DNA from: Geosiphon pyriformis | Taxonomy: Eukaryota; Glomeromycota; Glomeromycetes; Archaeosporales; Geosiphonaceae | Length of the DNA: 64,000 bases | Direction of reading: 5' to 3' | NCBI GenBank assembly: GCA_016748015.1 | Contig: JAAOMT010000516.1 | Location: 25,133-89,132 of the forward strand | In this document: positions 5,490 to 60,253 of the stretch, piece by piece | How positions within the stretch are numbered: the stretch's first letter is position 1 | How the letters are laid out: every line of letters begins with the position of its first letter | The notes under the pieces: generated by a model | Seen by the model: the letters and a program-made list of their open reading frames with translations, nothing else | Told to the model about the DNA's origin: nothing | Databases searched by the model: none | Translations under genes and position numbers: made by a program

Positions 5490-8400
5490 CTTAACATTTG
5501 TCATAATATGGCTCAAAGTCAACAATATACTGTAAATCTTCTTGACAAAGATTTTATTATTTTTAAAACACATTATAGTTTGTTTACTCGGAATTGGTGG
5601 ATTCAAAAACAATTTAAAAATGAGATTTTACTATATTTTATCAACTATATATGCATGTTTGTTTTAAATTAAACAAATAACAGTTTATAATAACAATAAT
5701 AAACCAAACTAATTGTTAGAAACATGGCTTTATTTGTACTAGTGGTTTAGAATTTAGTAATATTGAAAATTCATCTTTGACTACAATTAATACTTTGTAT
5801 TAAAGTATATTTAGTGTTAAGACAGAATACTCAGGTCTTTCAATTTTTGGTTTTAATAATAAAGCTTTTGTTCAGAAATTAACAAAAAACATTTTATTTG
5901 TACCATTGTTTCTGAAAGTTGACAAACATATAAGTGTTATTAATTCAATTAAATGTTTATCTTTCAAAAATTGCTATAGTGCAAAAACAGGATATATTTC
6001 AACAATAATAACAAAGATAAGTAAACAACAACAACTCATTGTACAAAAAATTAACAAGTCTATTTGTTATTTATATATATATAAAGATGAAACATATATT
6101 AGATTAATTAAAAGTAAAACACCCAATAACATTTGGAAAAAATTAGGAATTCTTACCAAATACAATAAAAAAACTCTTTTTGGTATCAAACATTTTGATA
6201 TATAATTCTTATTCCAATCAATGAATTATAAAAAATTATTTGTATGTATATTAAATAAATAGAGTAATGAAAATATACTAAAAGGCATTTTTGATAAGCA
6301 GATTAAGTTAAAAAAAATCTCTATGTAAATATTAGATTGGATGACTTTGTTTTATGAATAGTATAATTAAAAGAGGAATATTGTTTAATTTTTAAAAATA
6401 TTGGAAAAATTTATCTGCCAGATTATACTATATCAAAAAAAAATTATCTGCTTAGCAAGCCATATTTCAAAATTATGGATATTATGAAATTACTCCATAT
6501 AGTAAAAAAAATAGCAAACATAGAATTTTAGACTAAATTAAACATACTTGATTATAATAAAAATATTTTAGAAACATTATATAATATTGGTTTTTTATGC
6601 ATAACATCATGTGAACCAATAATTGTTAATAATTTAAAAAAAGTAGTTACTTTTTAGGAAAGTTTTAAATTAACTTACAAATCTAATATTGATAGAATAT
6701 ATAATAAGATTAGAATTTTGTCTATTATTGTAGAAAAGTTTCCTTATTTAGTATTAAAACAACAGCTTAAAGTAAGAAATCAAGATCTTTATAATATGTT
6801 ATATTCTAATACTTACTATAAAATTAGATTGGATCAGATACAATAAATGCTGCAAGAAAACATGCAAAATTATATAGTTCTGGATTATTTTTTTTTAAGA
6901 AACCAAAATGTACTTGCCAAAAGATGTCTGAAATTAAAAAATTGCAATTCATTGAATTTTTTCTAGACAAAAATTATGTCATTATGAGTTCTTACAAAGT
7001 AGATTCAAAATCAAATTTGCTTGTCTTGTATATAAAAAACCAAAAAAAAGCTTTGTGGAAAAAATTTTCTAAAACTTACTTAAATGAAATGAAAAAAACT
7101 TTATTTATAAAATGATTGGCTAATAATACACACATTCATTATCATAAAAATCTGAGTGGTTTGTGTTAAATATACAATGATTATAATTACAAAGCATTCT
7201 CAATTTAAAAAAACTGGCATGCAGAATCTTTACTAACAAAGAAATCAGAGTTAGTATATATTGTGTTTTATAATTAATATTATTTACTTACTTAAATTTT
7301 TAGAATAATATTTTGTCACATATTGAAAAGCTACACTAACATATAAAACAAACTTATGAAAATAAATTGACAATTAATGCTAATAGTATGATATTATACA
7401 ATAATTGTATTGATTATTGCTTGTTATATGCTTTTGAAAAATGTGATAAATCACATTTCTTACATTTTCAAGAGTGCCAAAAATATTTTGAATTGTTTAA
7501 ATTCATAAAACTTTATGTTAGCTTAAATGAATTTTCACAGTATGCAGAAATTAAAGATAGACTTTAATATTTTCTTGCACATTAAATAAGAAAAGTTTAT
7601 CTAAATGCACAATTCAAAGCTGTGTTGAATCAGTTAGATAAAAATAGTGCTATAATCATAACAGATTATAAAATGCGAGTATTACTTCAATCAGCCAAGA
7701 AAACCAAAGAAGTATTTTTTGGCAAATGAGAATAGACTTTGCATACAATTTTTGTATTTATAAAAAAGCCTAGTGAAAATAAATTGTTTATTAAAGCTTA
7801 TAATCACTGAAGTACAAATACCAAGCAAAATGCTTAATTTACAACTTTATTATTTGAAGCTGTATTTAAAACAATACAAAAAAAACCAAAATAGATTCAC
7901 ATATTTTTTGATAATAGTCCTTATTATCACAATTTTCAGCTTATAGCTATCATAAATCATTAGTGTAAATGATATAATATTCAAGTACTAGGTTGGCAGT
8001 TTTTTAAATCAGGTAAAACAAAGACTATAATAGATTCATATTATGTTTCAGTAAGTAAATATAAAGCTAGATTATATTATTTCTTTACTTACACTAATTT
8101 TATCCAGATTGCCCATATAATTAAATAATATATACGAATTAAATTTGATATTATGGAGGGTAATAACATCATAAAAGCTGGTTAAAACCTTGTTAGCATC
8201 TCTTTTATGAATATAGAACCAGATTGTAATCAAATAAGAGTGAAAAATAAGAGAAAAAAAGTGTCTGTAAAAATTATATCAAGAATTTCCAAGTATTATT
8301 ATTGAGAATGGCCTACTGAAAAACCATTGACAAGTTATATTTGCATGCAGTCACTTCTATATGTTGGTGGTTGAGAGAATTATTTATCAGCAACTATAAC

Positions 8401-9190
8401 AAATTTATATAATACAAAAATTGTTAGACCAAAACCTTTTTTTTTAGAGCATACTAAAAATCTCATTGATTAGAAGATGCAAATGTCATAGATATTAGAT
8501 AGATCTAATATGAAAGTTATTTGTAGCAACAATAATATAAATAATATTAATATTATCTTTAAATTTAATTAAAGAATACTCAAAAAGTAGATGATATTGG
8601 AAATCAATTAATAATAGAACTGACTATTAGAGAGGCCAAAAAAAGATCACAAGGTCAGTGTGTTTTCTTGAATTGATTATAAATAAAATAATAAAATTGT
8701 TTGATATTAATCTTATATTTGTAAAATATAAATTAAGATACCACTGTTTTTAGTCCGAGATAAGTCTTTTTATTGTGTTCACAAAGTTTTATATAGAATT
8801 TTAATCAAAAAAATCATAGCCTGATCAATCAAAAATATTTACTACTAAAAAAATGAGTGCTAAAACATAATCAGAAAATGGGTGGAAAGAGAAAGAGAAA
8901 ACATATGTCAAAAAAGATAAATATGTTGTTGTAAAGTTTCTTATAAATAAAAATTTAAATCTCTAAGATAACATATTAGCAAAAAAAATACAAGTTGAAT
9001 TTATGAGATTTGTAAAATTAGAAAAAATTGTGCAAAAAAACATTCCAAAAATAAATATGATCTAAAATTAGATTGAAAGATTTTCTTGTACTTTTAAAAA
9101 TACTGTAAATAAACAAGCATGACAAATATTAGAAATTGGTAAAACTGGAAGTTTTTTAGGAGATATAATAGTTATAGAAAATAAATAATA
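5490..9190 (+). mobile_element. Decayed DDE-like transposase relic
   Basis: Long stretches read as one protein interrupted by stops. The first is frame 2 from ~5490 through 6205, with one TAA in the middle. Then come ~6545-6845 and 6850-7250 in other frames, and then 7367-8506 in a single frame with a dozen or so stops and no net indel. Recognisable blocks are SEIKKLQFIEFF, HNNCID-like NNCIDYCLLYAF, IIITDYKMRV, FFDNSPYYHN and TKTIIDSYYV. The spaced Asp residues in TDYKMR and DNSPYYH look like a DDE/D catalytic core. A short intron is plausible near 7254-7304 (TTTTAG acceptor). Many stops fall where Trp or Gln would be expected (H-stop-S, NA-stop-F, TF-stop-ES). I know similar multicopy proteins from arbuscular mycorrhizal fungi but cannot give the family a formal name. 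The element ends are not defined and no terminal repeats were seen. Confidence 0.65.
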
Positions 9191-9199
9191 AGGGAAACT

Positions 9200-12100
9200 A
9201 CCTGTAAAATTAATATCATTCTTATTATGTTTTAGTTTTCTTATTTTTGGTCATATTGTTTTCATAAAAAAACTGTTGAACATACCAATTAAGATAATAA
9301 AACAATAAATGAGGGTGTGATTAATTATTTTCCTATGTAAACTTGACAAACAGCTGCCAAGTTATAACAGAAAAACACTTCAATTAACTCTAGTTTACTT
9401 AACAAAAAAGAGAGTATAGATGTAATAAAGCCAATAAAGTGTGCTATAGTTATAAAATCTTTGTAAGCTTTCACACTTTTTCCAAAAAAAGGCATATTAC
9501 TGACTGTAAAAATTTAAATCATTAAATACTGATAATTTTTACTATATGAATGGAGACAAAAATACTGGTTTTCTACATAACAAAAACTGTGAAAAAAAAA
9601 AATTGCTACTATTTTGTGCACGTGTTTTTATTTACTATTTTTGCAGAAGCCTACATATTTGTATCACTAATTGCTTTGATCAATACAGTAGCTGTTAATA
9701 GCATAAAAAACCAATGTTCAGTGTTTCTAATAGTAGATCTGTATAAAATTTTATCATGTGTTACACACCTGATTATAACCAATCTGTGAATTAAAAATAT
9801 TAAGTCATTTCAAAAAATTTAAAATTTTATTGAAAAGACAAACTTTAATTCTTTTAAGATTTTATAAAATATAAAAATAATAAATTGAAATAACTATAAA
9901 ATTTATAAAAAGATAACAAACATTGTATTATCTATTATTATAGCTTATAATTAACTAAGATATGGGCTATTTACAACTGTCAAAGTTTATAGACAAATAT
10001 AGACCTGAATATGCTACCATTAACAATTTTTCTGGAGGTACAGAATTTGAATATTGCTAAAATAATAAATTCAATTAATAATGACATTTTTATTTGCTTT
10101 TTATCAAATTTTGAAGATATAAAAATTATAAACTTACCAAATTTTTATTAGCAGATTTTACATATCTAAAACTCTTAAATTTACTAGATCTAAGAGGTTG
10201 AATCCAGTACTTTAAATCAAAATGTTAATATCCTTGATCTATTAAAAGATTATGTAAAATAACGTCATTGTTATTAACAACTCGTTGTATATTTAGGTTT
10301 TCTGTTACAAGCTATGCAAAAGCTTTATCACTAATATGAAACTATCTAAATATGAACATGTTAAAAGGTTTTTGTCTAACTTTAGAATAAAGTTTCAAAG
10401 CTAAAGCTGTAAATATTGCATATACTAAATAAGAAGCAAATTATACAAAGAAATTATAAAAAGTTATTTAAGCTTCTATTATTCAATCAAAGAACATTAA
10501 AATAAAAATAGTTTTTTTCTCTTAAAGAAATATTTCTATGCTATCATCTGAAACAAATTCAATTATACTTAAAATAAAGTTTATATTTTTCTTTATATCC
10601 TTTGTTATTTTTTTAATCAAATCTTTTTTATTGTTCGAAAAATCTTAAAAAATCCTTGATGAACTTTTGAATTTTGATCATAAGAGTAATTAGTTAATTC
10701 ACTATCACTAATGATATTAGTCACTTGTATAATATTACGGAAATTGTAAAGTATTTCATGGTTTTTTTTATCGAATTTTGCTATTACTAAAGAATGAATA
10801 CTTTGATTAATTAATATAGTAGTAAAAAGATTTTAAAAATTTGATATTTAATTCCAATTAGTACCTTGTATTTAATTGGAAGAATATATCATTTGATTGG
10901 CTTCCAAAAATGTATTACAATAAGCACATTTTTGCAGAGTTTCTATATAATTTGATTGTTTTATCAACTTCATTCAAAATTTTTTTTTTACCTCCTTAAT
11001 TTGAGTTACTAGCAAATAGTGTTCTATTATTTTCAATATTTTGATTTTCAAAGAAAATTTATTTTTCTTTTACAATAATCAAATCGGTCATTAAAACTAG
11101 AAACACATTAAAGTGAATAATCCAGCATGAGACCAAACAACTTAAATATAAATTGCTTAGTTATTTTTTATTCATCACATAGTCATAAATTGACAAGAAA
11201 ATCAATGCCTATTTAGCCAAAAATAGATTTCAGATTGGCCATTCACTGACTAAAAAGATAATTATTTAAACATGTGGATTTTGATATTTTTTTCTTAAAA
11301 CAAGGCCTGTCAAAAATGCGTAAATGGGTGAGAAAAGATAAATAAGAAATAAGAAACATAATAATAAATTTTTTCGATTTCTTAAGTGTAATCTAAGAAA
11401 CAAAGTTTAAGTTTACCACCTTCCGAAGGATTTATTTTTGAATCAAAATTATAATTTTATTTCACAAATGATTTATTATAATAAGTTTACAAATTGGCAA
11501 ATCTGAAATTTCTCATCTTTGGATGCTAGAACTAAAATTAAGAAAATAAAGCCATGGATATTGAAAAATAAGACATTTTTCCAAAATTAAACTATAAAGC
11601 TTCAAACAAGTTTTTATTTTGGGAAATTATTTCAGTATTATTAATAATGCAAAAATTTACCTTTTTATTTTATCAACCTTTGCATATTTGTAGAAATCTA
11701 ATATCAGTTATTCTTGTTTTAGGCTGAATAAAAAATTGCAAATTTAAAGATTTAAATTTATTCAAGTTTAAAGAGTTTTCAATCTTTTCAAAATTAGAGT
11801 TTATAAAAAAAATGATTGGCAAATTCTGTAACCTTAAATTTGTCGGAGATCAAGAACTGGATTCTAAAAAAAAACGGCATTTATCCTGCTACATAATTTA
11901 TACTTTAATATTTTTATTGTAGAAAAAATACCTTTTAATATATAATATTATTTAAAAAATCTTTGTTACAGAGAAATTTAATTGGAAACTGTTTCTGAAA
12001 CAGCATAAGGAAATATCAAGAATTTAAATACAAAAAATATTATTCCTTTGAAAAATTTAATTAATTAGTTTAAAAGTTGTATTGACTAGAATTCTCTTTT

Positions 12101-13753: not shown

Positions 13754-14033
13754 NNNNNNNNNNNNNNNNNNNNNNNNNNNNNNNNNNNNNNNNNNNNNNN
13801 NNNNNNNNNNNNNNNNNNNNNNNNNNNNNNNNNNNNNNNNNNNNNNNNNNNNNNNNNNNNNNNNNNNNNNNNNNNNNNNNNNNNNNNNNNNNNNNNNNNN
13901 NNNNNNNNNNNNNNNNNNNNNNNNNNNNNNNNNNNNNNNNNNNNNNNNNNNNNNNNNNNNNNNNNNNNNNNNNNNNNNNNNNNNNNNNNNNNNNNNNNNN
14001 NNNNNNNNNNNNNNNNNNNNNNNNNNNNNNNNN
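13754..14033. other. Assembly gap (280 N)
   Basis: This is a run of undetermined bases. Open frames running across it have no meaning. Confidence 0.99.
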
Positions 14034-14581
14034 GCAATTCTTTAAGTATAGGGACAAATATATTAAAAAGTGTTTTAATGTACTCTAATATAGATTTCAA
14101 ATGAAAATGAGAAAAAGATCTTTTAAGGTAAAATTTATTTTCAGTCTATAAAAATTTTCGTTAGCTCATAATCATATATACTCATCTCATTGAAAAATTT
14201 GTTGTAAAAATTCAATCAAATATTCATATAAGATGGAACTCAAATTTAAGTTATCTATTATTGTCTTTTAGCAAAGAAGGTGATACTCTATCAAGAACTT
14301 AAGATCCTTTTGTTTTGATTTGCCGGCAGTAAAATTTCACCGACAGGCAAATACATTAATCATTAAATCTTGATCCATTTAAACACCCTTATTTATTTCG
14401 AAGCTTCTACAGTTTTCGTATTATTTTTCTTTTTAAGATATTTTGGAATATGTGTTTAAAATGGAATAAATTTTTATATTGAAACTGTATTATTACCTTT
14501 GTTCTATCTTAACAATTTATTTATTCTTTTCACTTGATCTACATAAAATTTCTTTTACATATATTTTGAATTATTTTGAGA
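14034..14581. other. Intergenic, upstream of the lipase-like pseudogene
   Basis: This is AT-rich sequence between the gap and the first usable ATG of the lipase-like locus. An in-frame upstream exon carrying a signal peptide may lie here, because the hydrophobic stretch at 14479-14560 (LYYYLCSILTIYLFFSLDL) reads well, but it is in a different frame and lacks an ATG. Confidence 0.4.
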
Positions 14582-15807
14582 ATGATTTTTCAAAAGCATC
14601 ATTTAAAGAAAATCAGTCAACAATCAACAAATTCAGAAATCATATTTGGTCTGAGAAAAAGAAATCAAGGTCTCATTAATCAAATGGGTAAAATATACCT
14701 AGGTCCAGATACACCAAGATATATGGATTTACAACTTTCAGCTCTCTATGTTAGCACTGCTTATTGCTTTAAGGAATCGAAAGATAAAGTTGCTAATAGA
14801 GTTTATGGTAAAAAAAATTTTCTATAAATTCAAACATATCACTTTTTCTTTGACAAAAAAGCATTTAATTGGGGGAAACATTAAAAAATATTATTTTTAA
14901 TAAAAGCTGAACTAATTTTCAATGGTCACAACCAACAAATCATCATGATTTCTTTTAAGACGGATTTTCCTAAAACTTTTGAAGACTGGAGCAGCTAATT
15001 ATTTAATTTCAATTTGAAGTTTGCTGACTCAAATGGTGTAAATTTTGATTCAGAGTTTTATAAAAGGTATAAGTCTCTTGAACGAAGATTAATATCAAAA
15101 ATTGAGCCAATTTTAGAAGAAGCCAAAACACTTTTATTTGATATTGTAGATAGTATTCAAATTGTAGTTCATGGAATGGGTGGAGGTTTGTAAATTAGAT
15201 TTATTTTAGATATCGATATGATGTTTAGAAAAAAATATTGAATTTTTCTCGATATTCTAAACATTCAAAATATTTTTTTAAGTTTTCGCAATATTAGCTG
15301 AGTACCATATTGCTTTGCAACCAAATAATCTATTTAAAGTTATTGTACACACTTTTGGGCAACCTCATATTGGGAATACTCAATCTACATCATTTATTTG
15401 GATATTAATGAATGAAAGAAAAATGGACGTATTGAGAGTTACACATAGCAACAATTATCTACTAAGAATTCCACAAAGCAGTTCGTTTCTACACCCTTCT
15501 TTTGAAATGTGGATTGAATCAGATTGCAATTGTCAGGCTAATAATGGAAATAACAGGATTTACGGTTGCTATGATCTTTTTAAAGAATTCCTTGACGTTT
15601 ATATTGAAAGTAATGTAAGCACAAGGATTCAGTATTTTGTAAACTTCATATGAAAATAAAGAGTTTTGAAATTTATTAATGAAAACTGTTGCAATAATTA
15701 TTTAGGAATGCCTTAATGGGCAACCTACCCAATCTAAAATTGCAAATTTAGGAGCATACTTTCAACATATTATGGGAAAATATCCACATCCAGATTTTGA
15801 AGAATAA
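14582..15807 (+). pseudogene. Class-3 lipase-like pseudogene (alpha/beta hydrolase), four exons
   Basis: Splicing can be read directly. Exons are 14582-14807, 14907-15185, 15283-15614 and 15706-15807, with phases that agree at every junction. The product follows the Rhizomucor-type lipase order: an N-terminal helix ending STAYCFKE, a strand with NQQIIMISFK, the nucleophile elbow, HTFGQPHIGN, RVTHSNNYLLRIP, and a C-terminal exon starting ECLNGQPT. The elbow reads VVHGMGGG where the family has GHSLGG. The expected catalytic Asp position is Asn (HSNNY), and the expected His position is Leu (YDLFKEF). All three triad residues thus appear lost; this is alignment by eye. An in-frame TAA lies at 14996-14998, where the neighbouring sequence (DWSS-stop-LFNF) suggests an original Gln codon. 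The start is uncertain because no signal peptide is in frame. It converges on the paralog to its right. Confidence 0.75.
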
Positions 15808-15809
15808 GT

Positions 15810-16790
15810 TTATAAAAGTAAAAATTTTTCCACTAATTTAAAAAAAATATTTGCATTGATTTTCAAAAGGAATTTTTTCTTTTTTAGGACTTTATCACAA
15901 GTTTTTCAGGCTATGGGATTCATAAACATGAGCCAAATTCGTCATAATATTCTACAGTTCCTCACAACAAGAAACTGAAGATAAAAAAAAGGGGAATTTT
16001 ATATCATGTTATAGAAGAATTGTAGGTGGCCAACAGTAAATAAAATACATTCATTAAAATATTAATGTAATCTTTATTTTGACTATTATTTAAATAAAAA
16101 ATAATATATTCAGTCAGCAAAGAAAAGGATATGAACATAAATATAAATGCTTTAAGACTTTTTTAAATATAAATAAATATATATTTTTCATTATATTCAA
16201 TAGTTTTAAGCCTTTTTTTTATTTCAATTCCTCAGAATTTCTCAAGAAATAAAATTCTGAATATATAGACTGTTAGAAGAAGGATAAACGGTCTGCAAAA
16301 TTATTGTATTAGACCAGATACCTGGTTTCTGTTTTAAAAATTTATAAAAATAAAAAAAGAAATTAAGAGTTTCAATGAAAAACCAAAATCTAGTCATTTA
16401 TGCACCATTTTGTTTTGTTTTTCAAAAAAATTCTATTTTAGTGAAATTTTTTCAACACCAATTCTAAACTTAATTAGAAGTCAATATTTTTTGGTTCACT
16501 TTTAATTAATTTTAAAACATATATATTAATAAAGCAAATTTAAATTGTAAATTAAAAATAAATAACTTTTATAATACTGTTTTTATATGTATAATCTTAT
16601 TAATAAAAAAATAATTTGAATATTGTATCTTAAATTATCTAAAAAATTTGTTTTATTAAAAATAAAAAATAATAATAGCAAAATAATTTATATTATAAAT
16701 TATAAAAAGATTCTGTTAATAATTCAAACCAAAATTTTAAATAAAAATAATCAAGTGAATTCATCTTTACAAAAAAATAATATAAAAAAA
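15810..16790. other. Intergenic between two convergent lipase-like loci
   Basis: This is AT-rich sequence with no gene recognised. The open frame at 16623-16904 on the + strand is low-complexity and overlaps the last exon of the - strand locus, so it is not called. Confidence 0.5.
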
Positions 16791-18114
16791 CTAAAGAGTC
16801 ATCCATGGAAAGTTCTCAGGTGGACATTGCATCATCATCCCAATGTAAGGTCCATTATGCACGGCATAATTACTGGTCATGCATTGGTTGTTACATTCCT
16901 ATAAAAAATAAAGATGAAGATGATAAAATAAATAACCTTTTAAATCTAAGGAGAAATTTTTAGAAATATTTACCGAGCTCTCTTCAACAAAATGATCTGG
17001 CCCTGTTTGTGGTCCTGTACAAGCAAATACCTTTTGGGTAGCACACAAGCAATTATCTGCCTCAATCCAATTTTCTAAAAGTGTGTGAATGTAAAATGAT
17101 TTGGAAACTCTTTCTGGTAGCCTTGGAATATAATCATCCATATTAGTAATCCTATGAATTATAATTTTACTGACAAGTGAATTTACATATTGTGCAAATT
17201 GATAATTCCCAACACGAGATTGTCCATAAGTATAAATTTTTATTTTTTGTTTAATGTTGAGTGTTATTAATTCTAGCATTTCAAGCAAAACATATACTAA
17301 AATTTTAAAAGTATATCGATTTAGTATTTAAAATTAAATATGTTTTTATTTTAAAAAATTCTATAAATCACTTACCACCACCTGAACAATGTCCAATTCC
17401 AATAACCTTTCTAATAACTTCATTTTTAAGTAGACTATCATGAAATCTTTTAAATTTCTGTTATATGCTCTCAAAACGTCTCTTAAACTCTTGATTAATT
17501 TTTACTCCATCAATCTGAGAATAAGGGACCAAAATATTTTGTCTAGTTCTTCAGTATTCCTCGTTTCCTAATGGTTCACCTTTTACCACAATAATTATTG
17601 TGTTATCAACAGCAAAAAATTTCACTACAACAATATCGAAATTGTTCTATTAGGGCAAAATTATTTTTAAAATTATATCTGGTAAATTTCAAATAAAAAT
17701 ACCATAAATTTCTGGCCCAATAGCATACATTTCATTAAGACAATAAGAACCACCAGCAAGAAGTGTAAATTCTTCCAAATAACCATAAGGGATTTTAAGA
17801 TTCCTTTTCAGTAAAAAATGCCCTTTGGCCTTAATTTTATTATTAAAATTTAAGAAATTTATTAGTAATGAGATATTTTTTTCCGTAAAAAAACATTTGC
17901 TTTTTAAATTTGGCCCTAATAAAACTTTCATTTGTTGGACTATAGGATTTTTTTGGGAATCACTTCTTGCTGGAACGAGCCTTGAATGAGCTGATGCTAA
18001 AAGATTGCCAGAATTTGGGAGAATTTCCATATCCATAATATCATTACCTAGACAAATTCTAATACAAAAAGAAATATGATAAAGTAGAACTGAAATATAC
18101 GACTTCCTAACCAT
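16791..18114 (-). pseudogene. Class-3 lipase-like pseudogene, secreted type, four exons
   Basis: Exons on the complement are 18114-17703, 17624-17376, 17296-16974 and 16898-16791, all phase-consistent. The protein starts MVRKSYISVLLYHISFCI, a plausible signal peptide. It contains AGGSYCLNEMYAIGPEIYG, then KFFAVDNTIIIVVKGEP, the elbow GIGHCSGGVYVLLEM, IYTYGQSRVGNY, RITNMDDYIPRLP with the catalytic Asp kept, and TGPDHFVEES with the catalytic His kept. The C-terminal exon begins ECNNQCMTSNYAV and is Cys-containing. The nucleophile position in GHxxGG is Cys rather than Ser. Two in-frame stops lie in exon 2: TGA at 17553-17551, where Trp is plausible, and TAA at 17463-17461. No indel is needed. 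It is a paralog of the locus at 14582-15807, in tail-to-tail orientation. Confidence 0.78.
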
Positions 18115-19611
18115 CTTTTGAAATAAAGTGTTAATTTTTAGTGCTAAAATTTCTTAAATAATGTATTGATGTTATTTTGAATTATTTAATAGCTGTATAA
18201 AATCTTGTAGAACTTTAACTTCATAAATACAATTTTTGATGATTAATTTGTTATATCAATTATTTGATATCCCGGAGAATTTTCTCCCTCTTAAATCCAT
18301 GTGTACATAATGTATATCAAACATTAAATTTTATGCAGAAAATTATCCAATTTTTCTTGATATGATTATAGTATGAAATATGTTTTTAAAGACTTAAAAT
18401 AAAATAAGTAAGATAAACATTATAAATAAAAATAAATAAGATTTAAAATTGAGAGACATAGCATATTGAGTTAAAATATTATGATTGTAATTTATAATGT
18501 TACTAAAAAGACTTTTTTTTAAAAACCATTTTTTAAAAGTATATATATACGTTATAATAATTTCAATGTTTATATCCCTAATTAATTTGTTTTTATTGAG
18601 TCTTCAAAGAATTTTACTGTTAAATTAAAAAAAAAAAGTTTTTTTCATAATTATAATTTTTCTATTGAATTTTTATTCTTAAAAAATATTTATTATAAAT
18701 TAAAATAATCATAATTTATATTATAATAATTTGTTATATATATATTGAAATTTATTAAATTAAAATATATTTATTGTTTAATAATTGGGAAATAAAGTTT
18801 GATTTAAAAAGTTTAAGTTAATAATAATAATAATAATTTTGTAAAAAATATTTTATATGGTTGCAATTAAAGAAAAATATAAATTGTGAAACTTTAAAAA
18901 ATTTATATATATATATATATTTTAAAAACTATTAGTTTATTCAAAGTAATATTTATTGCTTTACTTTTATTTGTTTAAAATTTTTAATTTTTATTATAAT
19001 AAAGATATTAAAATATTTTTTTTGCTATAAAAAGCAATTTCTCTTAATTCTTTAATTTAATTATTATTTATTAATTATTTCAATAATTTAGGTTATTTAT
19101 TTTAATTGCAAAGTGTTTCTTATCATAATAAATAAATAAATAAATCAAACAAACAAACGGTATACTCCCTCAAGTTTACACCTAACGGTAGAATTTCTCA
19201 AAATAATTATGGAAAGATAGAAATATTTCATGTTTATCTTTTTAATTCTAAATAAATTTTAGTAAAAAATATTTGTTTAAACAAGTTCCCTAATTATTTC
19301 CTTGGAATGGAACATTAATTCAAAGGTTTTTTTTTAATTAACTCTGAAAAATAAGTTGGAAAAATAAAATTTATTTTGATATCAATTTATACAGTGATAT
19401 TGGTTTGAATTAAATTCAAAAAGATAAAAAGTTTCTTTAGATTAATAAAAGAATTTCTTCGTTGTAAAAATTTTTTTGCCCCAATCGATAAAAGTTTCAA
19501 ATTAGGATATTTAAATAAAAAAATTAAAAAAAAACTTTTGGTATATACGTGAATTAAAATATGTCAAGAATGTTTAAATGTTGAGAAATAAAAAAGTGTT
19601 ATAATAATCAC
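18115..19611. other. AT-rich intergenic DNA
   Basis: No coding signal was found. The stretch holds an (AT)n microsatellite near 18905-18920 and an AAAT/CAAA tetranucleotide run near 19130-19157. Confidence 0.6.
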
Positions 19612-20889: not shown

Positions 20890-21032
20890 TTATCAGCGTT
20901 AATTGTGATGATAATCTATATAAATTTAGTTTATAAAATTTCATTAATTTTGTGTTTTTGTAAACCTTAAATTAATATTCACACTAACTAACCAATTAGA
21001 ATTTGTAAATTCCAAATCGAATTTTTAAATTG

Positions 21033-21368
21033 TTTATAAAAAGTAAAATTGCTTATTTGGTAAATTAAACTCATATATTCATAGATAGTTTAGTTTTAAA
21101 TTTATAAATTTTTGGAATAAATCCTAATGTCTAAAATAATTATGTTCAAAAATAAATTCTAATTTTCAGATTAATTTGAATGAATTTAATAATTTATTCT
21201 TAGATATGTTAAGTGTCAATTTAAATTAAGTCAATTAAATCTTATTTTATTTATTATTAATATCAATATTTTAATTTATTTTAAATATATATTTTTATAA
21301 TTAAAAAACAATCTAAGTTTTGTTTAAATCTCTGATAGCAATAATTCAAAAAATTATATTGTAAAAAA
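21033..21368 (+). repeat. Flipped segment within the right arm
   Basis: It is the same-strand partner of 3278-3592, about 20 bp longer because of small indels (for example an extra CATAGATAG-like insertion near 21083). It is flanked by TTGTTTATA on the left and GTAAAAAACAA on the right. Confidence 0.75.
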
Positions 21369-22768
21369 CAATTTTTTTTTGAATATTTTTGCAATAAATT
21401 TTAAAAAAATAAAATAAATAATAACAATAAAATTTAATAAAATGTGTAAGTTCATTAAATAAATAAAATTAACTTTAAAAATATTAATATTTAATTATTA
21501 TGTACTAATTATGCTAATACAAATATTTAACAATAAACAATAATAATTTTTTTAATTGAAACAATAAGAATAATAATACATTTATCAAAAATTAAAATTA
21601 AATTTTTAATAAATTATTACAAATTATAGAAGCAAAACAAGCTATATTTTAATACGTATTTTTTTTATTAATAAACAGTATTATGTATTTCAAAAAACTG
21701 ATTGATATTATAAAAATTAAAACAACATCTTTTTTTCTCATATCATTGCACTTTTTAATAATAATATAATAATTAAAAAAGTTATTATCAATTGTTGAAA
21801 TTTTTTTAGAGAAATAATTTTTATTTTGGTGCTTAATAATTAATGGTTTTTTGAAAATTAGGTAATATAAAACTTTTAATTTAATTTTGTTGGTCTTAAA
21901 TTGGTTATTAAAAATAATATTATGTAAAGTTTAAAATTTTTTAAATGTTGTTATTAAAATTAAGCTTGCCAATTTACTTTTTTATTATATTTAAAATTTC
22001 CAAATTTGTGGTTATTGTTGAATTTTGTAATTTTTTTTGGGATATTTTTTAATAACATCAAAAAATGTTCTCAAAATATTTTATTAAAATTATTGCTGTT
22101 ATATTAAACTAGTTGATTTGTATTAATATTTTATGGTTTATTTGAAAAATTTGTTAAATAAAACATTGACCCGATAATTAATTTTAGATGCAAAAATAGC
22201 ATTAAAGTTTTTAATTATTTGACTTTAAATTCTAAACTGTTTTTTTTGGCTTTAACAAAACTTTAATGTTTTAAGTTATTGTTTAATTTGGTTGGTTGGT
22301 TTATTGTTATGTGCTCAAATTACCTGGAAAAACTCATATTTAAAATTTGATTTTAAAATAAATTTTCCAAAATACAAGATAAAATTTATACCAGTGAAAG
22401 CCAAGGAAATTACTTTAAACTTGTTATTAAAGCCTATCATTGATAAAGTAGAGTGATATACCTTTTCTTGATATTAAGAATTTTTTTTGGAAGCTGCATT
22501 TCGGTTGTTACGTGAAAAAATCTCATTTAAACTAAAATAGCAATAAGACAATAACATTTGAGTTCCTAAACAATCTTTACCTGTTTAATCAATCTGGCTC
22601 AGAGGTTGTGTGTTTTCAGACTTTCCAACGTTTCTAATTTCTTTAAGGCCTAGCCTTTTCAAGAATGTGATTAGAGGTTGAAATTCTTATTTATTAACAA
22701 GACAAACTCTTTCTTTACCCATACAAAATATTCAAGGCTTAATACTGTTCTTGTTTTGTTTGAAAATC

Positions 22769-25700
22769 ATGTCTTTAAATTCATCAACTGAAAATGCAAC
22801 TTCAACCCTCAACTGGCTTGAAGGAACATTGCTTGTTATCAAAGAAAATTTGGCCATTTTTCCAGCTACTGAATATTCAAAAGTTGCTGAATTAGTGAAA
22901 AAATATCTTGTGCACAATCAAAAAACACCTGAAAATTTGTTTGATTGCTTAAATAAGCAATATTCAATATTTTACTTGGCTTTTCTTTAGAACATGAGAT
23001 TGGAACTACTCTTAATTTAACAAAAGCATTTTTAAAATATCAGAAAGCAGCGAATGCAAAAGATTCTCTTGGACAATTCTTCTTAGAATGTTGTTATGAT
23101 ACTGGAATGGGTACTTCTCAAGATCAAAGAAAAGCATATGAACTCTATTCAAAAGCTGCAGAGGCGGGTAATACATTTGCACAATACAATCTTGCAGTTT
23201 GTTATTTAAATGGAGAAGGGACGATGAGAAATTCAGAAAAAGCATTTGAACTTTATTCAAAAGCAGCAAAGGCGGGACATGTAACTGTACAAAATAATCT
23301 TGCAGTTTGTTATGCTAATAGAAAAAAAACGACAAGAAATTCAGAAAAAGCATTTGAACTTTTTTCAAAAGCAGCAGAGGCGGGACATTTAAATGCACAA
23401 AATGATCTTGCATATTGTTATTATAATGGAGAAGGAATGACAAAAAATTCAGAAAAAGCATTTGAACTTTTTTCAAAAGCAGCAGAAGCAGAACATTTAG
23501 ATGCAAAATACAATCTTGCAGTTTGTTATGCTAATAGAAAAAGAACGACGAGAAATTCAGAAAAAGCATTTGAACTTTATTCAAAAGCAGCAGAGGCGGG
23601 ACATTTATATGCAAAATACAATCTTGCAGTTTGTTATGCTAATGGAGAAAGAACGACGAGAAATTCAGAAAAAGTATTTGAACTTTATTCAAAAGCTGCA
23701 AAGGCAGGACATTTATATGCAAAATACAATCTTGCAGTTTGTTATGCTAATGGAAAAGGAACGATGAAAAATTCAGAAAAAGCATTTGAACTTTATTCAA
23801 AAGCTGCAGAGGCGGGACATTTATATGCAAAATACAATCTTGCAGTTTGTTATACTAATGGAAAAAAAATGACAAGAAATTCAGAAAAAGCATTTGAACT
23901 TTATTCAAAAGCACCAGAGGTGGGACATTTAAATGCACAAAATAATCTTGCAAGTTGTTATTTAAATGGAATAGGAACGACAAAAGATTCTGAAAAAGCG
24001 TTTGAACTTTATTTAAAAGCAGCAGAGGCGGGATATTTAAAAGCACAATACAATCTTGCAAGTTGTTATTTAAATAGAAAAGGAACGACAAGAATTCAGA
24101 AAAAGCATTTGAACTTTATTCAAAAGCTGCAGAGGCGGGACATTTAGGTGCACAAAACAGTCTTGCAAGTTGTTATTTAAATGGAATAGGAATAACAAAA
24201 GATTCAGAAAAAGCATTTGAACTTTATTCAAAAGCTGCAGAGGCGGGACATCTAAATGCACAAAATAATCTTGCAGTTTGTTATGCTCATGGAGAAGGAA
24301 CGACGAGAAATTCAGAAAAAACATTTGAACTTTATTCAAAAGCAGCAGAGATGGGAAATTTATTTGGACAAATCGCTCTTAGAGCATATCATCGATATCA
24401 ATTAGAAATAACGGAAGATCAGGAAAAAGTGGGAAATCCGAGTTCACAAACCAGTATTGGAATGTACCATCGAAAGGGATGGGAAATAGTGAAATATTTA
24501 GAAGAAACATTTCAATTCTATTTAAAAACAGCAGAGGCAGGAAATCAAAATGCACAATATAACCTAGAATGGTGTTATCAAAATGGATAGGAAACCACAA
24601 AAAACCTCCACAAAGCATTTGAACTCTATTTAAAAGCAGCGGAAGCAAATAACTTGTGTTATCAAAATGATTTTCCTGATTTGAATGTCCATGACCTTTC
24701 TTTAGAGGACCAAGACAATCTGGAATATATTATTTTACGATTCCAAAATCGAGGCTTTAAATACAGTGATAATTTCCAAGGAGAATTTTTAAATTTTGAA
24801 GCCTTCTTTGACCAGCTTTCAGATGAATTCAAGTGTTTTAAATGTGGCAACTTGGGTATAATCATTAATGGATCTCCTATATGTCCATTTTGTGATACTA
24901 ATAAAAGGGAGGATGTCTTTAAAGCTAGATTGCCGAAATGTCTAGAATGTTATAGAACATTAAAAGATCTACTTTGGTGTGTATTTTGTGAAACATCACG
25001 ATTTTCACAGATTCGGAACACATGGAAAAGTGGAAATGATAATATTGATCAGTATATACTATACACACAGCGAAATTCTGAAAACTGCAGAGGCTGTTTG
25101 GAATGGATTTCTCCTGATGAGATTATATATTTAGATCAGGTAGGAGTGGGAGAATTTGGTACTGTGAAAGAAGGTAGATGGAAGAGAGGCAGAATTCTAT
25201 TTTGGGACAATAAAATCCAAAAGTATGAACGAACTGGTGTTACAAAGATTGCTTTGAAATATCTTAAAAATAGCCAAAATATAGAACATATCAATTCAGA
25301 TGAGGTATTTCCTTTTAAGAAATCTATGTGATTTTTATTATCCCTCTTTCTTTTCTAACACTAAAACTATATTTGTGTAGTTTATTTCGCATTATCAAAG
25401 TGCCACTTGCAAATACATCCTTGAATGCTATGGGATCACAAAAGACATTACAACCGATAATTATGTTATGGTTTTACCATTTGCGGAACACGGGGATCTC
25501 AGAGCTTTTCTCAAGTTGAACGAAGATATTCTTATTTGGGACATGTTTTTTTGTATTCTTTTTCAAATCGCTGGTGAACTATGATTTATCTATGAATCAA
25601 AACTGGTGCATGGGGACTTGCATTCTGGAAATATCCTTGTTTTGAAAACAAACCCCTTAAAAGTTGTCATTTCTGATCTTGGACTCTGTCGTCCTGCAGA

Positions 25701-31300: not shown

Positions 31301-32500
31301 AGTTCTATATTTGTTTATTGGTATTAGTTTTAACAATATATATAAAGTTTTTCTTTATAAAAATTAACTATTTAAAAGCTGCTGAGTTAGTGGCTTTAGT
31401 ATTTTTAAACTCAATTAGTGTTTTTTGCCAAAAACTAATTAACTATATCTTAATATTTTTTACTTATTAAATTTAAATAATGTTAATTTTACTACTAATT
31501 TAGAAAAATTTATTAGAATTTCTTTAACAATAATTTTTTGAAATTAATATTTGCTAAAACTTTTTTTACTAATTGCCAAATTTTTAGTCTGATTTAAATT
31601 CGATTTAAAAATAAATATTAACGAAATTATGTCTTAAAATTTTGAAAAAATAAAAGTCTATCCAAAACAATTTATTTAATAAAAATTTTTTCTAATATAT
31701 TTGAGTTTTTTATTTAAGTTTTTTTTAGCAATTACAACAAAATTAATATTTAAAACAAAAAATTTGATCAGATTAAAACTTTTTTCTTTTTAACTGAAAC
31801 TGTAAATTGTACAATAATCATAACAAATTTTTTTTTATTAATACATTTAATAAGTAAAGCCTAATCACTATATAGTGTACAGAATCAAACTAAGTAACCC
31901 TATAAATATCTATTATAAAAGCATTTTATGAATAAAAAATTATTTGAAGTCTTTTTTTTGTTTTGTGGATCATAAAAGATTAAGATTGAAACCAAAATTA
32001 AATTGAAACAATTTTTTCAAACACGACTATTTTAACCAAAACTCTTAAGTTTATAGATGTTGATTAAAATTGGAATAACAATTTTTAAATAAAGAATATA
32101 TTTTTATCAACAGATTTAATATTCCCAATTTTTTGACTTTAGCATTATTAATAAGTACAAAAACAATAATACATAAACAATTAATTTACATTTTAATAGT
32201 GTAAACATAAATTATATGAAGATAAAAGTTTTTATTCGAATATTTTTAATAAGATATTTTCTTTAGATTAATTTTAATCACAAATTTGCGCTATCTATTT
32301 ATTAAGATACTTTGTCACTCTTTTTTCATAAATTATATGAATTATTCAAATATTTGGACATATGTTTTTCTACATTTTTCTTTTATAAGATTTAAAACCA
32401 AACTTATAATATTAAAAATTATATTTCGCAAAATTTTTTTAGCAATTTAACTTTTATGGTTTGAATTTTTGACTTGCTAAAACTAAAACTACTTATTACT
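28376..32500. other. AT-rich desert
   Basis: No recognisable gene was found. Open frames such as 28467-28748 and 30166-30348 are short and dominated by Phe, Leu, Ile and Lys, as expected by chance at this composition. Confidence 0.55.
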
Positions 32501-32502
32501 TT

Positions 32503-32735
32503 AGCATTTTTCGAATTGAATGAATGAAAAACTCAAAAATATCTACCTGTTTTAAATTTCTACGAGTTTTCTTAATGACTTCATTATATTGTGCATCTTT
32601 CACAAAATTATTATCGATGACGATAAAATAATTTTTAAATTTTTGATTAAATATGCTTTCAAAAACATCCACTTTAATAGTTTTATTATTTAGCTCTACA
32701 TAAGAATTGTTTGCAGAGATATTTTGCCTCAGTTT
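32503..32735 (-). pseudogene. Unidentified coding-like stretch without a start
   Basis: About 77 codons stay open on the complement with a balanced residue content: KLRQNISANNSYVELNN, then KTIKVDVFESIFNQKF, IVIDNNFVKDAQYNEV and RRNLKQVDIFEFFIHS. Upstream, after a possible intron, comes WYNSMLHISIFRIQYQ. That is more protein-like than its AT-rich neighbourhood, but I do not recognise the family. It is probably a remnant exon of a decayed gene or transposon. Confidence 0.35.
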
Positions 32736-50126: not shown

Positions 50127-53050
50127 TTAATTGTCTATAAAATATATAGCTTTTTTATCAATTATATAATAAGTATAACCAAGTTTTATAAATTCTACAC
50201 AATGATCAATTGCATATACATTAATAAATTTATATAAACTATATTTTGAAAAAGATAACAATCCAATATTATCTTTTTCAATATTAGCAGTCCAATGAAT
50301 ATAAACAAGCATATGAGTTTCTCCATTAAAATTATAAACCAAATAGTATTCAATATTTCCATAAAATTTTTGTGTCACATATTCTGGTTCTTGTTTAGGA
50401 AATAAATCCCATTTGTCTACTTCTATTATAATCTATATAAAATTTATAAGTTAAATATTGCATTAAAAAATTTCGAACCTAATCTTGATTTTTTTTATCC
50501 ATTTTGATCCAATAATATGTCTATTTTTGGTATATAATCGTCCATATTTTGTGCCATATGGAAAAAAAGATTAATAACTATTAATTATCACAAAGTTTTT
50601 AAATTATAAAAAAAATAAAAGCTTACTCTTAATTTTCGATTGTCTATATTATATAGAACAGAAAAATAATCTTTAATTTTTTTTAATTCTGCCTGACTAA
50701 GAATATATTTTTTTGATGGAAAATAAAATTCTTTATTCACTTTAAGTAGAGAAAATATAAGATGTTTTGCATAATTTTTTTTTGTTGAGAAGGAAAAATA
50801 GTCATATAAATAGTAGTATAAAATTTTAGATTAAACATTTTCCAAATATGAACATTATTAATGATGTTTTTGTATGGATAAAAATATGATTGGGCTAAAG
50901 AAACAAGTATTCCATATACTTGTTTTATAGGAAATTGCCCAACATGAACCAGTTTTTTTAATACTATCTACAATGTGTAACAAGTTATAAAAACATAACT
51001 TAATTGTATTGCAGCATTTCTCTTAACCATGATAATAATATCTGTAAAAAAGATCAATTACATTTGTAAATACTTTATATTAAATTAATAAAGCAATAAG
51101 TCTTTATTTATCTTTTATAATAGTTATAAAAGAACCGAAATAATGATCAAATATTATTCATATCTTGTACAGTTAATATTAACTTTTGACACAAGCATAC
51201 AGCTTTAACAAAAGTTGTTTATTTCTCATAATATCTTTGTGGCATTCACCCTTTTAAAAGAGACAAAGAATACATTGTGATCTATGAAGCCTATTCTTCA
51301 GCCTTATATCCATTATAATAAAGAACAATATTGCGTAGGAATTGTCCAAATGAGGTAGGCAGTATTGTTTGATGATAACTCATTTCAATTCCTATTTTTT
51401 TCTATGTATTTTTGTTAAGTACATAGTTTCTATTATTCTGACCACCTTTTTTTAAAAAAAAATTATCTATTCAATGTTTGACCATGTATTTAGAAATGTT
51501 TTTATAAATAAGATGTATTATATCAATTGAAAAAAAATCTGGAAAATAGATTGCTTTCAAATTAAATAATATACTTTGATCTTTTATTTCTATTATTATG
51601 AAAAAAATAAATATTAATAAAAGCAATTAATGCAAAAAATTAATAATGAAACATACCAAATTTTGATATTAATTCTGCTTTGTTTTTTTCTGAACTGGCT
51701 GTTTTTATTTGAAAAATTTGATCTTGAAATTGTTTATAAGTTTATAAGAGTAAATTATCTGAATTATATATTTGATATTAATCCTTTTTTTCAATGAGTG
51801 ATAATATTAGAAAATATATATGATTTGTATAAAGTCTATAGATATCACAAAAGTGACATCTTTTGTATGAATTATGTCCTATAAGACACATTAACTTTGT
51901 TAAATTAGGCATATTACCTGATCATAACAAGACATAGGCATATAATAAAAAAAACTCTTTTTTAAATCCGTCATAGCAGTCAATTTCAACCAGATGCATA
52001 TTATATAATAAAGTTAATATATGTAATTAATGATCTGTTAAATAAGATATTAGAATATTACTTTCTAACTCGTTTAATTCTTGAATTATAGGAAACATAA
52101 ATGAATTAAAATCTTTAGGTTTCTTTGAAACAGATATAATAGTTGTTATCATTAAGTTTTCTTTTTTAACATGCTTCTGTAGACAAATATTGGCATTGAC
52201 TATCAAAACTACTTAGCAATTGTCTGTTTTTTGTCGAAATATTTGGTAACCATTAATAAAACCTGTCAATGCCACATTTTGATCATCTTGAAAAAAGCTT
52301 TTGGACACAAGTTCTTTGTATTTTATATCATTAAATATATCTCCAATTGTGCCATCTGAACTGAAACCTTGATGGCAAGTATAATTTGCATGATATCTTA
52401 TAATTTCAAAGTGTTTTGGATCTTAGTACTGAATTTTAAGATAATCTTTGATAAAAAAATAAGCCATTTGACATTAAAGAACACGTTTTTTTTCTTGGAA
52501 TCTTGGTGTTTAACAGATATTACATTCATCATAATCTTTGTACTTTCTGGTATATGCATGACAGGATTTGATACACATATTAACCCATGTTGGTTTTATA
52601 GGTACTATAGATTTTAATGTTTTTTTTGCTTGGTATAGATTAACAATGCCACCATTAACTGCTATTATAATTTGTCAAAATGCATCATCAGTTAGATTAC
52701 AGCAAGACTTGACCTTAAATAATTTGAGTGCACAAGCCAATTCACTAGATAATTCTCTCTTTTGTTTAATGTCTAATATGAATGGAATTATCAAATTGGT
52801 TTCAAGATAAAAAAATAGGAGAATTTTTAAGTAACTATGAATACCAAATTTTTATACCAGAAATATTATTAAATGATTTGCCTGAGTTAATTAAATCATT
52901 AATTCCAGAATTCAAAGACAATTCATGCTTAATATCCAAATAATCTATAATTTTAGAATTCAAAAAAAATTCGTGTTCAATATCTAAATAGTCCATAATT
53001 TTAGAATTCAAAACCAATTCAGGCTTTATGTCAGAATAATCACTTCTCAA
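50127..53050 (-). mobile_element. Decayed Plavaka-type (CACTA-like) transposase
   Basis: The complement carries the family's characteristic blocks in order. They are NLYQAKKTLKSIVPIKPTWV, MCIKSCHAYTRKYKDYDECN, RFQEKKRVL, YFFIKDYLKIQY and FINGYQIFRQKTDNC; then SKKPKDFNSFMFPIIQELN, a stop in place of Trp before SGNMPNLTKLMCLIGHNSY, KRCHFCDIYRLYTNHIYF, and a C-terminal part with GNIEYYLVYNF and HMLVYIHW. Plavaka transposases are cut-and-paste enzymes of fungi, distantly related to CACTA. Several nonsense codons and frame changes show that it is dead. The N-terminal part (52835-53050) has internal repeats LNSKIMDYLDIEHE / LNSKIIDYLDIKHE. Element ends and terminal inverted repeats were not identified. 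Confidence 0.78.
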
Positions 53051-53795: not shown

Positions 53796-53883
53796 CTTTT
53801 TAAATCCTAATATAATGCTCAAGTCAAAATTAGTCCAAATCAGTTAATTTTTGAAGGTAAAAAACTTATAGTAAAAATTTTAT

Positions 53884-55958: not shown

Positions 55959-55959
55959 T

Positions 55960-57720: not shown

Positions 57721-57760
57721 GGAAAAAAAATTCATTCCCAAGATATATCAAAAGCTACTA

Positions 57761-59285
57761 ATGTCATCCGAACAACACTTTAACGCTTTATCCAATGATT
57801 TCGGGGATCTATTTGACTGTCAAAAGTTCTCTGATGTTAGAATTATAGTTGACGAAGCACCTAATATCAGAAATTTTCATGCTCATTCTCAAATTTTAGC
57901 AGCAAGATCACCATATTTTGCTGTAGCGCTCTCTAGTAATTGGGTTAAAAGGGAAAATAATACCATTATATTCACTAATCCTAATATTTCACCTAAAATT
58001 TTTGAAATAACTCTCAGGTAAGGGATATGTTTGCTTCAAAGTATTTTGGCCGACATAAATTTAAATATTTTTATTTTCCTGCATAGATATATTTATTACG
58101 GCGAGATTTCCCTTAACGAAGATGGAGCACCTATTATTTTAGAATTACTTATCGCCGCTGACGAGCTTATCCTAGAAAATATTATTGATCCTCTTGAAGA
58201 CTATTTGATTGGACATCATTTAAAAGAGCTACAAGAAAATTTCGTCACTTGGCAGAAAACTTCATTTATGCATGATTCTTTCAAAAATTTACAGATTTTA
58301 TGCACAGTAATAATGGCCAACAATCCAGCTATAGCCTTCAACTCGCAAGATTTTACCTCTCTTAGTTGAAAATGCTCTTTCTCAATTTTAACCCGGGATA
58401 ATCTAAATATAGAAGAATCGAGGATATGGGAAAAGATCGTGGAGTGGGGAGTTGCTAAATTGGATGACAATATTCAGACGAAAAAAGTTCTTGACTGGAC
58501 GGATGAAAACTTTAACGCCTTTAAGGAATCCATTTTAAGACTACTACCTTTAATCCGCTTCTTTAACATATCTTCAGTTGACTATTATTACAAAGTAATA
58601 CCATTTGCAAGAATCTTACCTGGAACTTTATATGAAGATCTTTTACATTATTATCTCGTATTGGGTAGTCATCAAGAGTCTGTAGACGCTCAGCCATTAC
58701 GATCAAATTATCATTCAAAGCTTCTTCAATCGCATAATATAAAACAGCTTGATCATTGGATTCAAGGCAAAGACGAAAATACTCCTTTTGAAGATCAACT
58801 TGGAAATGATTTTAAATTGTTACTTCGAGGCAGTCGAAACGGATTCACTCCAGCCGATTTTCATCGATTATGTGATAATAAAGGAGCAACAGTAAGCGTG
58901 ATCAAAGTGAAAGGAACTGGTCATTTAATTGGCGGCTATAACCCACAATCCTGGCACTCTCGGGGTGGAAGATCAGATGGAGAAGGAAGTTTTATTTTTT
59001 CCCTTGGAGACGGCAAAGCTAAAAATGCTAAAATTTAGTAAATTTCTTCATGGATGTGGACCTTATGGTGGATCAAGACCTAATTTTGGAGAGAACAGGA
59101 TTCGATTGTATGTAAGTCTTCTATTTTGTGGCAATGATTTTAGAAAAAAGCCAGGGTGCTCTTGTCAAAATACAAGAGATTATGAGCATGCTATAATGTC
59201 TGGATCAGAAAATCAATGGATAAATTTCTTTGTTGAGGAGTATGAAGTTTTTCAAATCATAAAAAATAAATTCGCTTTTATTTAA
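57761..59285 (+). pseudogene. BTB-BACK-TLDc protein, broken copy
   Basis: The ATG gives MSSEQHFNALSNDFGDLFD. A BTB domain follows (SDVRIIVDEAP, FHAHSQILAARSPYF, YIYYGEISLNEDGAPI), then a BACK region (RDNLNIEESRIWEKIVEWG), and a TLDc domain (LLLRGSRNGFTPADFHRLC, GTGHLIGGYNPQSW, GSFIFSLGDGK, EEYEVFQIIKN). Such proteins are abundant in arbuscular mycorrhizal fungi. BTB parts usually bind cullin-3, and TLDc is linked to oxidative-stress functions; neither is shown here. A clean intron lies at 58018-58086 (GTAAGG ... GCATAG). Two lesions are seen: TGA at 58367-58369 in an otherwise uninterrupted frame, and a frameshift near 59030 inside TLDc, after which the domain continues in another frame to its normal C-terminal motif. 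Confidence 0.82.
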
Positions 59286-60253
59286 TTTGATTATACATTT
59301 TCTGAAGGTCATGCTACCTATCTTGAAAATCTTTAGTGGCAGAATATTCTACAGCCTATTATTATAAGCCCCATAATAAAGTTAAAAGAATAACTTTTAA
59401 ATATCAAAAAACTTTAGAATTAACTTTTTTTGAAGAAATTTGATTTAAGTTCGACTTATAATTTATACCATTTTTAAAAGCAAGAGCATGGATAATATGT
59501 TAGATTATGAAAATCATAATATGCATACAGAAATAGATGTCATCGTTAAAGGCTTGTTGTCATTTTATTAAGGGTTTGTCAAACACAATTAAAATGGTAA
59601 ATTATTCACATCCAAGATTTTCATTATTATTTATTTAAGAGGTGAATTATTCAATTAACCAGAAGCCATAACTATAAAAAAAGACTGTCGTTCTTTCGAT
59701 AACAAAAGTGGGATTTTGAGGATTGGAAAGCTACCAAAAGTTATTAAATCGTTCAGCTCCAATAAATTAATCTATCTTTAATAAATTGCCAAGATTTAAT
59801 GAACAGATGAACGAATGCAAGTGGTGAAATATTTTGTCACCCAGGTTAGACGTGTAATGCAGAACAAAGAAATAACTCTTGTTGATATACATGATTTTGG
59901 TATTGGGAAGTAATTTTAATATCTTCTTTAGTGATTTTATAGAGAACAGGTTAAACTTTTGTGGTTAATCTCCCGACTCACATTTTTATCTTCAATCATT
60001 TTAATTTTTAATTTTTTTTTTTCAGGTGTTATGATGACTTTTGAGAACCACTGTACTTCTTGAGTTTTTAATAACAAATTATTCTATTAAGACTACTAAA
60101 ATTTTAAGGTTGCAAACTATATTGAAATGATTCTTATTATTATAGTTATAATTAATATTTCAATTGATGTTAAGTAAATGGAAAACTCGAATAAACCTAA
60201 AATTGACGTCTTTTTTATTATACATGAATTTTACCTAAACTAAAGTGGAATAT
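59286..60253. other. Intergenic
   Basis: A short open piece at about 59812-59911 reads RMQVVKYFVTQVRRVMQ and NKEITLVDIHDFGIGK and may be a coding scrap. The rest holds nothing recognisable. Confidence 0.4.

Follow-up and report, generated by a model that had tools for sequence, protein, structure and literature searches.

Directed C-to-T decay, RIP-like in outcome, of transposons and some Sel1 gene copies in Geosiphon pyriformis

Repeats and gene duplicates in a 64,000-nucleotide stretch of the Geosiphon pyriformis genome (assembly GCA_016748015.1, contig JAAOMT010000516.1, positions 25,133 to 89,132; hereafter the window, numbered from its first letter) carry many stop codons within otherwise recognizable frames, and raise the question of whether they have decayed neutrally or through a process directed at cytosines. 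An earlier note, made from the letters of the window, had proposed a widespread and directed C-to-T (and G-to-A) decay of duplicated genes and transposons, either resembling repeat-induced point mutation (RIP) or driven by methylation. We searched the same genome (124.7 Mb in 406 contigs) for paralogs of the relics that it named, aligned them, and tallied the substitutions by direction and sequence context. The comparison covered about 300 kb of paralogous and flanking DNA; the sample from which genome-wide extent is judged comprises three families that resemble transposons, a Plavaka-like pair, ten copies of a Sel1-repeat gene and two lipase pairs. We refer to loci elsewhere in the genome by L-numbers, and to the two Sel1 copies in the window as W1 and W2. 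The alignments reveal a strongly directed C-to-T process that acts in all contexts, on CpG first and with a 5' T favored, and that has affected each insertion independently; some members of the Sel1 family are affected, and neighboring duplicated DNA is spared. Ratios of transitions to transversions (Ts/Tv) among paralogs lie far above those of a duplicated control flank and beyond what chance and drift can provide, and the central proposal of the earlier note is thus confirmed.

The clearest hypermutated element in the window is TE1, a DNA transposon relic (5385–9790, + strand) with short terminal inverted repeats (TTCACAGAT...), whose ends were determined from eight copies. The tetranucleotide TTAA is present on both sides (5381–5384 and 9791–9794), and these target sites suggest that the family is perhaps piggyBac-like; a Pfam search of the TE1 frame gave no convincing match. 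Eight near-complete sisters of the 4.4 kb element are located in the same genome, with 85–86% identity. Among the nine copies the pairwise divergence is about 13% with a Ts/Tv of ~15–40 (mostly 20–40), and the polymorphic columns include 390 C/T, 475 A/G, and 63 of all other kinds. When two-state columns are scored as ancestral C (those with C and T alone) or ancestral G (those with G and A alone), the loss of ancestral C/G comes to 29–37% per copy, about equally on the two strands. An alignment of eleven copies of the 3' 1.4 kb yields 1662 C>T or G>A changes, 16 T>C changes and 29 transversions, a count in which the column rule tilts mixed columns toward C>T and in which the transversion tally is independent of the rule. 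Singletons alone comprise 177 C>T, 50 T>C and 31 transversions.

The excess of hits shared between TE1 copies is mild and uniform across all 36 pairs (1.31–1.54), indicating the absence of tree structure (as in a star phylogeny with hot-spot sites), and the copies have therefore been mutated independently after insertion. A strand-run test for the patchy mutation of a single RIP cycle gave no clear signal (z −2.0 to 0.9), and no clear runs were detected in lightly mutated copies either. Two of the relatives, L010 (G000:C165) and L011 (G000:C175), have a common internal deletion in which window position 6341 is joined to approximately 8375, showing that a non-autonomous derivative of TE1 has spread. 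L010 has half the C-to-T load of its relatives, with 10 CpG remaining in its 3' part, yet it has the same handful of transversions; transversion counts are too few for dating of the C-to-T load to separate a burst from gradual decay.

The consequences for coding capacity are most apparent in the decayed frame of TE1 (7301–8600, + strand; no Pfam match), which the earlier note had described as a transposase at 7367–8506 with stops where Trp or Gln is expected. In nine copies there are 130 stops at positions where some sister copy keeps a sense codon, and for all but two of these (128 of 130) a sister has TGG (53), CAA (48), CAG (21) or CGA (6), in agreement with that description. As just six of the 128 explained stops are of the CGA type, CpG deamination alone could account for those six only.

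A tabulation of substitution types and neighboring bases, which the earlier note had recommended, shows C>T to be dominant, with CpG the most affected dinucleotide. The mutation rates per C in TE1 (bootstrap 95% intervals in parentheses) are 0.60 (0.57–0.63) at CpG, 0.34 (0.31–0.37) at CpC, 0.29 (0.26–0.31) at CpA and 0.27 (0.24–0.30) at CpT. Outside CpG, the rate is 0.39 with T as the 5' neighbor, 0.33 with C, 0.23 with A and 0.20 with G, and the intervals for T and G do not overlap. Among trinucleotides TCG is highest (0.66), followed by ACG, CCG and GCG (0.56–0.59), and non-CpG trinucleotides are also strongly affected; 720 of the 2973 hits are at ancestral CpG, so that three quarters fall elsewhere. 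The 600 ancestral CpG cells are now 17 CG, 233 CA, 213 TG and 137 TA, which means that about 97% of these sites have been mutated on at least one strand, and the proportion of TA (23%) fits a second mutation of the remaining cytosine at roughly the CpA rate. The CpA preference expected of RIP as it occurs in Neurospora is absent from TE1, in which CpA is similar to CpT and below both CpC and CpG, and neither is there a restriction to TpCpG of the kind described in Pucciniomycotina.

The earlier note had also recommended RIP indices and a measure of CpG depletion, and these two gave different returns. CpG is strongly depleted, with an observed/expected ratio of 0.11 within TE1, 0.54 over the window as a whole (23% GC), and down to about 0.04–0.2 in 2-kb bins across several repeat-rich stretches of the window; the open genes at its right end have ratios of 0.7–0.8. 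The classical indices for TE1 (TA/AT of 0.9–1.0, and (CA+TG)/(AC+GT) of 1.2–1.5) are uninformative because the process is not CpA-specific.

The Sel1-repeat genes provide an internal control. Copy W2 (22369–24646, + strand) is moderately mutated and can be polarized with W1 and a third copy, L030; W1 (2–1640, − strand) has 2 C>T changes in 205 polarized C/G sites and serves as a near-unmutated reference. Within the coding part of 22.4–23.1 kb, W2 has acquired 26 C>T or G>A changes, 2 T>C changes and 4 transversions, and W1 has 2 C>T, 4 T>C and 3 transversions in the same stretch. Two details that the earlier note had read from these copies are upheld: the TAG at 24588–24590 faces TGG in the other copy, and the conversion of NGEGT to NRKKT by G-to-A changes is visible in the Sel1 open reading frame. 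The flank of W2 (20892–22372, − strand) was duplicated together with the gene, and is not hypermutated. About 340 bp of it (21030–21368) are inverted relative to 3278–3594 and L030, and because this inversion mimics substitutions, the part at 3240–3640 was left out and the polarized counts are from outside the inversion. The frequency of C>T per C/G site is 26/230 (11%) in the W2 gene body and 4/124 (3%) in the co-duplicated flank, a significant difference at this one locus (Fisher p = 0.009). At W2, the sole locus compared, mutation thus does not extend over the whole duplicated stretch as it would in RIP.

The same flank shows how these sequences drift, with a Ts/Tv of 0.5–0.9. Comparison of 2247–3732 with 20892–22372 and L030 gives 0.45–0.83, with approximately 3.4% loss of C and 1.3% transversions per lineage. 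TE1 copies have about 0.2% transversions each, below the 1.3% of the flank, yet their C loss is ~33% compared with 3.4%. TE1 is therefore younger than the flank by transversions but has lost ten-fold more of its cytosines, which excludes neutral AT-biased drift. The earlier note had proposed that paralog alignments lacking a C-to-T excess, or drift equal to that of intergenic DNA, would speak against a directed process; both comparisons were made and the proposal withstands them. The process is also locus-specific, as sisters of equal age differ several-fold in their C-to-T load (26 in W2 and 2 in W1; 99 and 23 in the pair with L041 described below) and L010 has half the load of its relatives. 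Sel1 copies elsewhere in the genome are far more heavily mutated: L037, L033 and L031 (~640–685 bp) have 118, 98 and 87 C>T changes with 1–3 transversions each, under a multi-copy counting rule that has a floor of ~0.18 even in the least affected copies, such that only increments above it are meaningful.

Other elements in the window behave similarly, to different degrees. TE2 (32750–35449) belongs to a second repeat family, with more than 20 related places in the genome, that is older and more heavily affected than TE1; its Ts/Tv relative to the closest copies reaches about 10, 55–72% of inferred ancestral C is gone, and ancestral CpG is still CG in only 14 of 385 scored cells. The context ranking is that of TE1, at higher saturation. 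A third element (29875–31898) is unequally mutated in two copies: L041 has 99 C-to-T changes and the window copy has 23, and 33 transversions separate the pair. It is inserted between 28460–29891 and 31905–32762, which are parts of one C-poor repeat family that it splits; CpG is almost absent from part of this family, which is perhaps old and saturated. A relic at 50579–53001 (− strand) was named Plavaka in the earlier note, and the decay claimed for it at 51922 is well supported by its paralog L072, with 308 transitions and 36 transversions (Ts/Tv of 8.6) and with TGG, CAA or CAG facing the stops of the window copy. The family name was not confirmed, as there is no convincing Pfam match to the frame.

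The two lipase relics weakly share the C-to-T direction. The first (14542–15943, + strand) has a mild window-side excess relative to L071 (40 C>T compared with 8, and 22 transversions), with a per-site rate of 26% at CpG and 5–11% elsewhere. The second, a class 3 lipase (16998–18400, − strand; Pfam Lipase_3, E 2e-10), has 35 C>T on the window side and 11 on the side of its paralog, L070. Only one of the two lipase stops that had been attributed to this decay belongs to it: the stop at 17551–17553 is TGG in the paralog, and that at 14996 corresponds to AAA, and so arose by a transversion outside of the C-to-T pattern. A fossil kinase proposed at 39.1–39.4 kb found no support, being recognized neither by Pfam nor in a tblastn search that used the kinase of the window as query. 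Elsewhere in the window there is a run of 280 N at 13754–14033, which may be an assembly gap, and toward the right end are open frames at 60254–60838 and 61733–62812 in which units of 51 and 87 bases (17 and 29 residues), respectively, are repeated in tandem without a shift of frame; the products are low-complexity proteins rich in Ser, Asn and Asp.

A genome in which decay is guided by 5-methylcytosine (5mC) should encode cytosine methyltransferases, and exons of both DNMT1-like and DIM-2-like types are present. A profile search conducted exon by exon returned ten PF00145 matches, including a DNMT1-like gene at C96, two DIM-2-like genes at C327 and C355, and DNMT2-type genes at C346 and C307. 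The best match of the C327 gene is the 1456-residue methyltransferase chain 9bap/9baq, whose length, considered with the published cryo-electron microscopy of DIM-2, suggests that the chain is DIM-2; the C355 gene is a close relative as judged by eye. RID is distinguished by EQT or EET at motif VI (PMC6709928), and no such gene was found among the PF00145 matches, in which all motif VI triads that were read are ENV, although the exon-wise search may miss it. They also include a short cytosine methyltransferase gene with ENV at motif VI (L018, G000:C318:788280–789372), which could be the RID-type gene reported for arbuscular mycorrhizal fungi, and a decayed paralog of it is located about 32 kb away (L022, C318:820713–821336). 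Loss of uracil glycosylase was considered as a cause and rejected, as ung exons are present at C271.

The explanation that we favor is a methylation-linked, RIP-like hypermutation, active or passive, to which we assign a probability of roughly 0.58. In this account transposons, and a subset of the genes in expanded families, would carry a mark, most likely methylation of cytosines in all contexts with the highest density at CpG, and C-to-T change at the marked cytosines would proceed far faster than any other substitution. Each insertion would be affected independently after landing, on both strands and over its entire length, ending with the loss of nearly all CpG and at least a third of other cytosines, and with many Trp and Gln codons in the genes turned into stops. 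In Rhizophagus irregularis 5mC is very abundant (32–49% of C by liquid chromatography-mass spectrometry; PMC8298701), CpG methylation is enriched in Sel1-like and kinase genes, and transposons are methylated (PMC8647823). Sparing of the Sel1 flank is better explained by a mark-guided process than by simple sensing of duplication, and together with these published methylation patterns it fits guidance by chromatin or methylation marks. Guidance by methylation is our inference, as is conversion by either a methyltransferase-linked route or deamination of 5mC. By analogy with Dim2 of Zymoseptoria, an active methyltransferase-dependent mutator may be at work, intermediate between mark-guided decay and RIP.

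Several observations weigh against this explanation, particularly in its passive form. Spontaneous deamination of 5mC raises transitions about ten-fold in animals, and non-CpG C-to-T changes here are about two orders of magnitude above transversions, so that passive decay would not suffice unless T:G mismatches were repaired unusually poorly or a mutator were active. Passive deamination also leaves the 5' T preference unexplained, and the repeats at 28460–29891 and 31905–32762 show little C-to-T excess, although these repeats are old and had little C left to lose.

The strongest rival to methylation-linked hypermutation is true RIP, a premeiotic, homology-sensing process of the RID or DIM-2 type acting in bursts on duplicated DNA with a CpG and TpC preference, which we regard as possible but the less likely account. 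It would explain why 97% of TE1 substitutions are C-to-T under the column rule with few transversions, the independent mutation of each copy along its whole length, the involvement of multi-copy Sel1 genes, and the 78–87% identity within families, which is close to where homology sensing would end; RID and DIM-2 are reported in arbuscular mycorrhizal fungi (PMC8298701), and a RIP-like pattern of the TpCpG type exists in Microbotryum (PMC5381629). It does not readily accommodate the spared flank of W2, the lack of clear strand runs even in lightly mutated copies, or the ENV reading of all motif VI triads recovered by the exon-wise search. A 2025 kingdom-wide screen of fungi saw RIP-like signatures in ascomycetes only (PMC12543289), and Gigaspora margarita is cited, in a passage of PMC8647823, as having no detected RIP signature. 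Of the earlier note's phrase 'RIP-like or methylation-driven' it is the directed C-to-T component that is secured. The process in G. pyriformis is RIP-like in outcome, without strict RIP being established, as there is no CpA preference, the flank of W2 is spared, and the exon-wise search found no RID with EQT or EET.

Slow deamination of transposons methylated only at CpG is improbable, even though mutation is heaviest at CpG, which has nearly disappeared from the transposons, and CpG methylation of transposons is known in R. irregularis (PMC8647823). The distributions of hits and of stop codons given above, together with the non-CpG C-to-T excess over transversions, contradict it and exclude such deamination as the principal cause. 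An APOBEC-like, TC-preferring cytidine deaminase of single strands acting on transposition intermediates or transcribed DNA would account for the 5' T preference, and is slightly less probable still; both strands are equally affected without clear runs, CpG is strongly preferred, Sel1 genes are also affected, and a genome search with APOBEC_N, made without a positive control, gave no match. Neutral AT-biased drift might be suspected in so AT-rich a region, and has a negligible chance of being correct given the far lower C loss and Ts/Tv of the flank despite its greater transversion load. Equally negligible is an artefact of assembly or base calling, for although long-read callers make errors at modified bases, a third of all cytosines are changed here at sites differing between copies, and the nearby genes at 58370–59038 and 61733–62812 remain open.

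The literature that we searched contains no report of such a pattern in arbuscular mycorrhizal fungi. The signature is extreme in paralog alignments and nearly invisible to classical composition indices, since CpA is not singled out and the genome is AT-rich to begin with, which would explain why screens have missed it; a test of Ts/Tv and of TGG- or CAA-to-stop changes among repeat copies offers a direct route to its detection. We raise only tentatively, as a somewhat doubtful proposition, that an active genome defense akin to RIP, but specific for CpG/TpC, operates in this putative arbuscular mycorrhizal fungus, an assignment made plausible by circumstantial gene content and composition. A process of this type would provide both a transposon defense and a force destroying gene duplicates (such as Sel1) in transposon-laden fungi with expanded families. 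It bears on the debate over sex in arbuscular mycorrhizal fungi, since if it were tied to a premeiotic stage, the scars would be genomic evidence of cryptic sex in a group long deemed asexual.

Comparison with known systems places the pattern near several of them without matching any one. RIP in Neurospora crassa (RID/DIM-2) is similar in converting C:G to T:A in repeats and duplicated genes, with Trp and Gln stops and very few transversions. However, Neurospora favors CpA, whereas here CpG comes first and then all contexts with a 5' T; the whole duplicated stretch is affected premeiotically in Neurospora, whereas the co-duplicated flank is spared at the one locus compared here; and our exon-wise search found no RID of the EQT/EET type. 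The RIP-like pattern of Microbotryum and other Pucciniomycotina (PMC5381629) shares the CpG and 5' T preference, but is described for TpCpG, where mutated target sites number about 1.7 per copy; the mutations found here extend to every context and have removed a third of all C. CpG deamination of methylated transposons, as in vertebrates and many fungi, likewise results in near loss of CpG with TG and CA products in near-equal numbers, but differs in that most of the hits here are outside CpG. Dim2 of Zymoseptoria tritici (PMC8016269) also produces C-to-T changes in methylated repeats, with methyltransferase dependence and no need of a sexual cycle as features of the Zymoseptoria system; more than 98% of its mutations are at CpA rather than CpG, whereas in G. 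pyriformis CpG is the top target.

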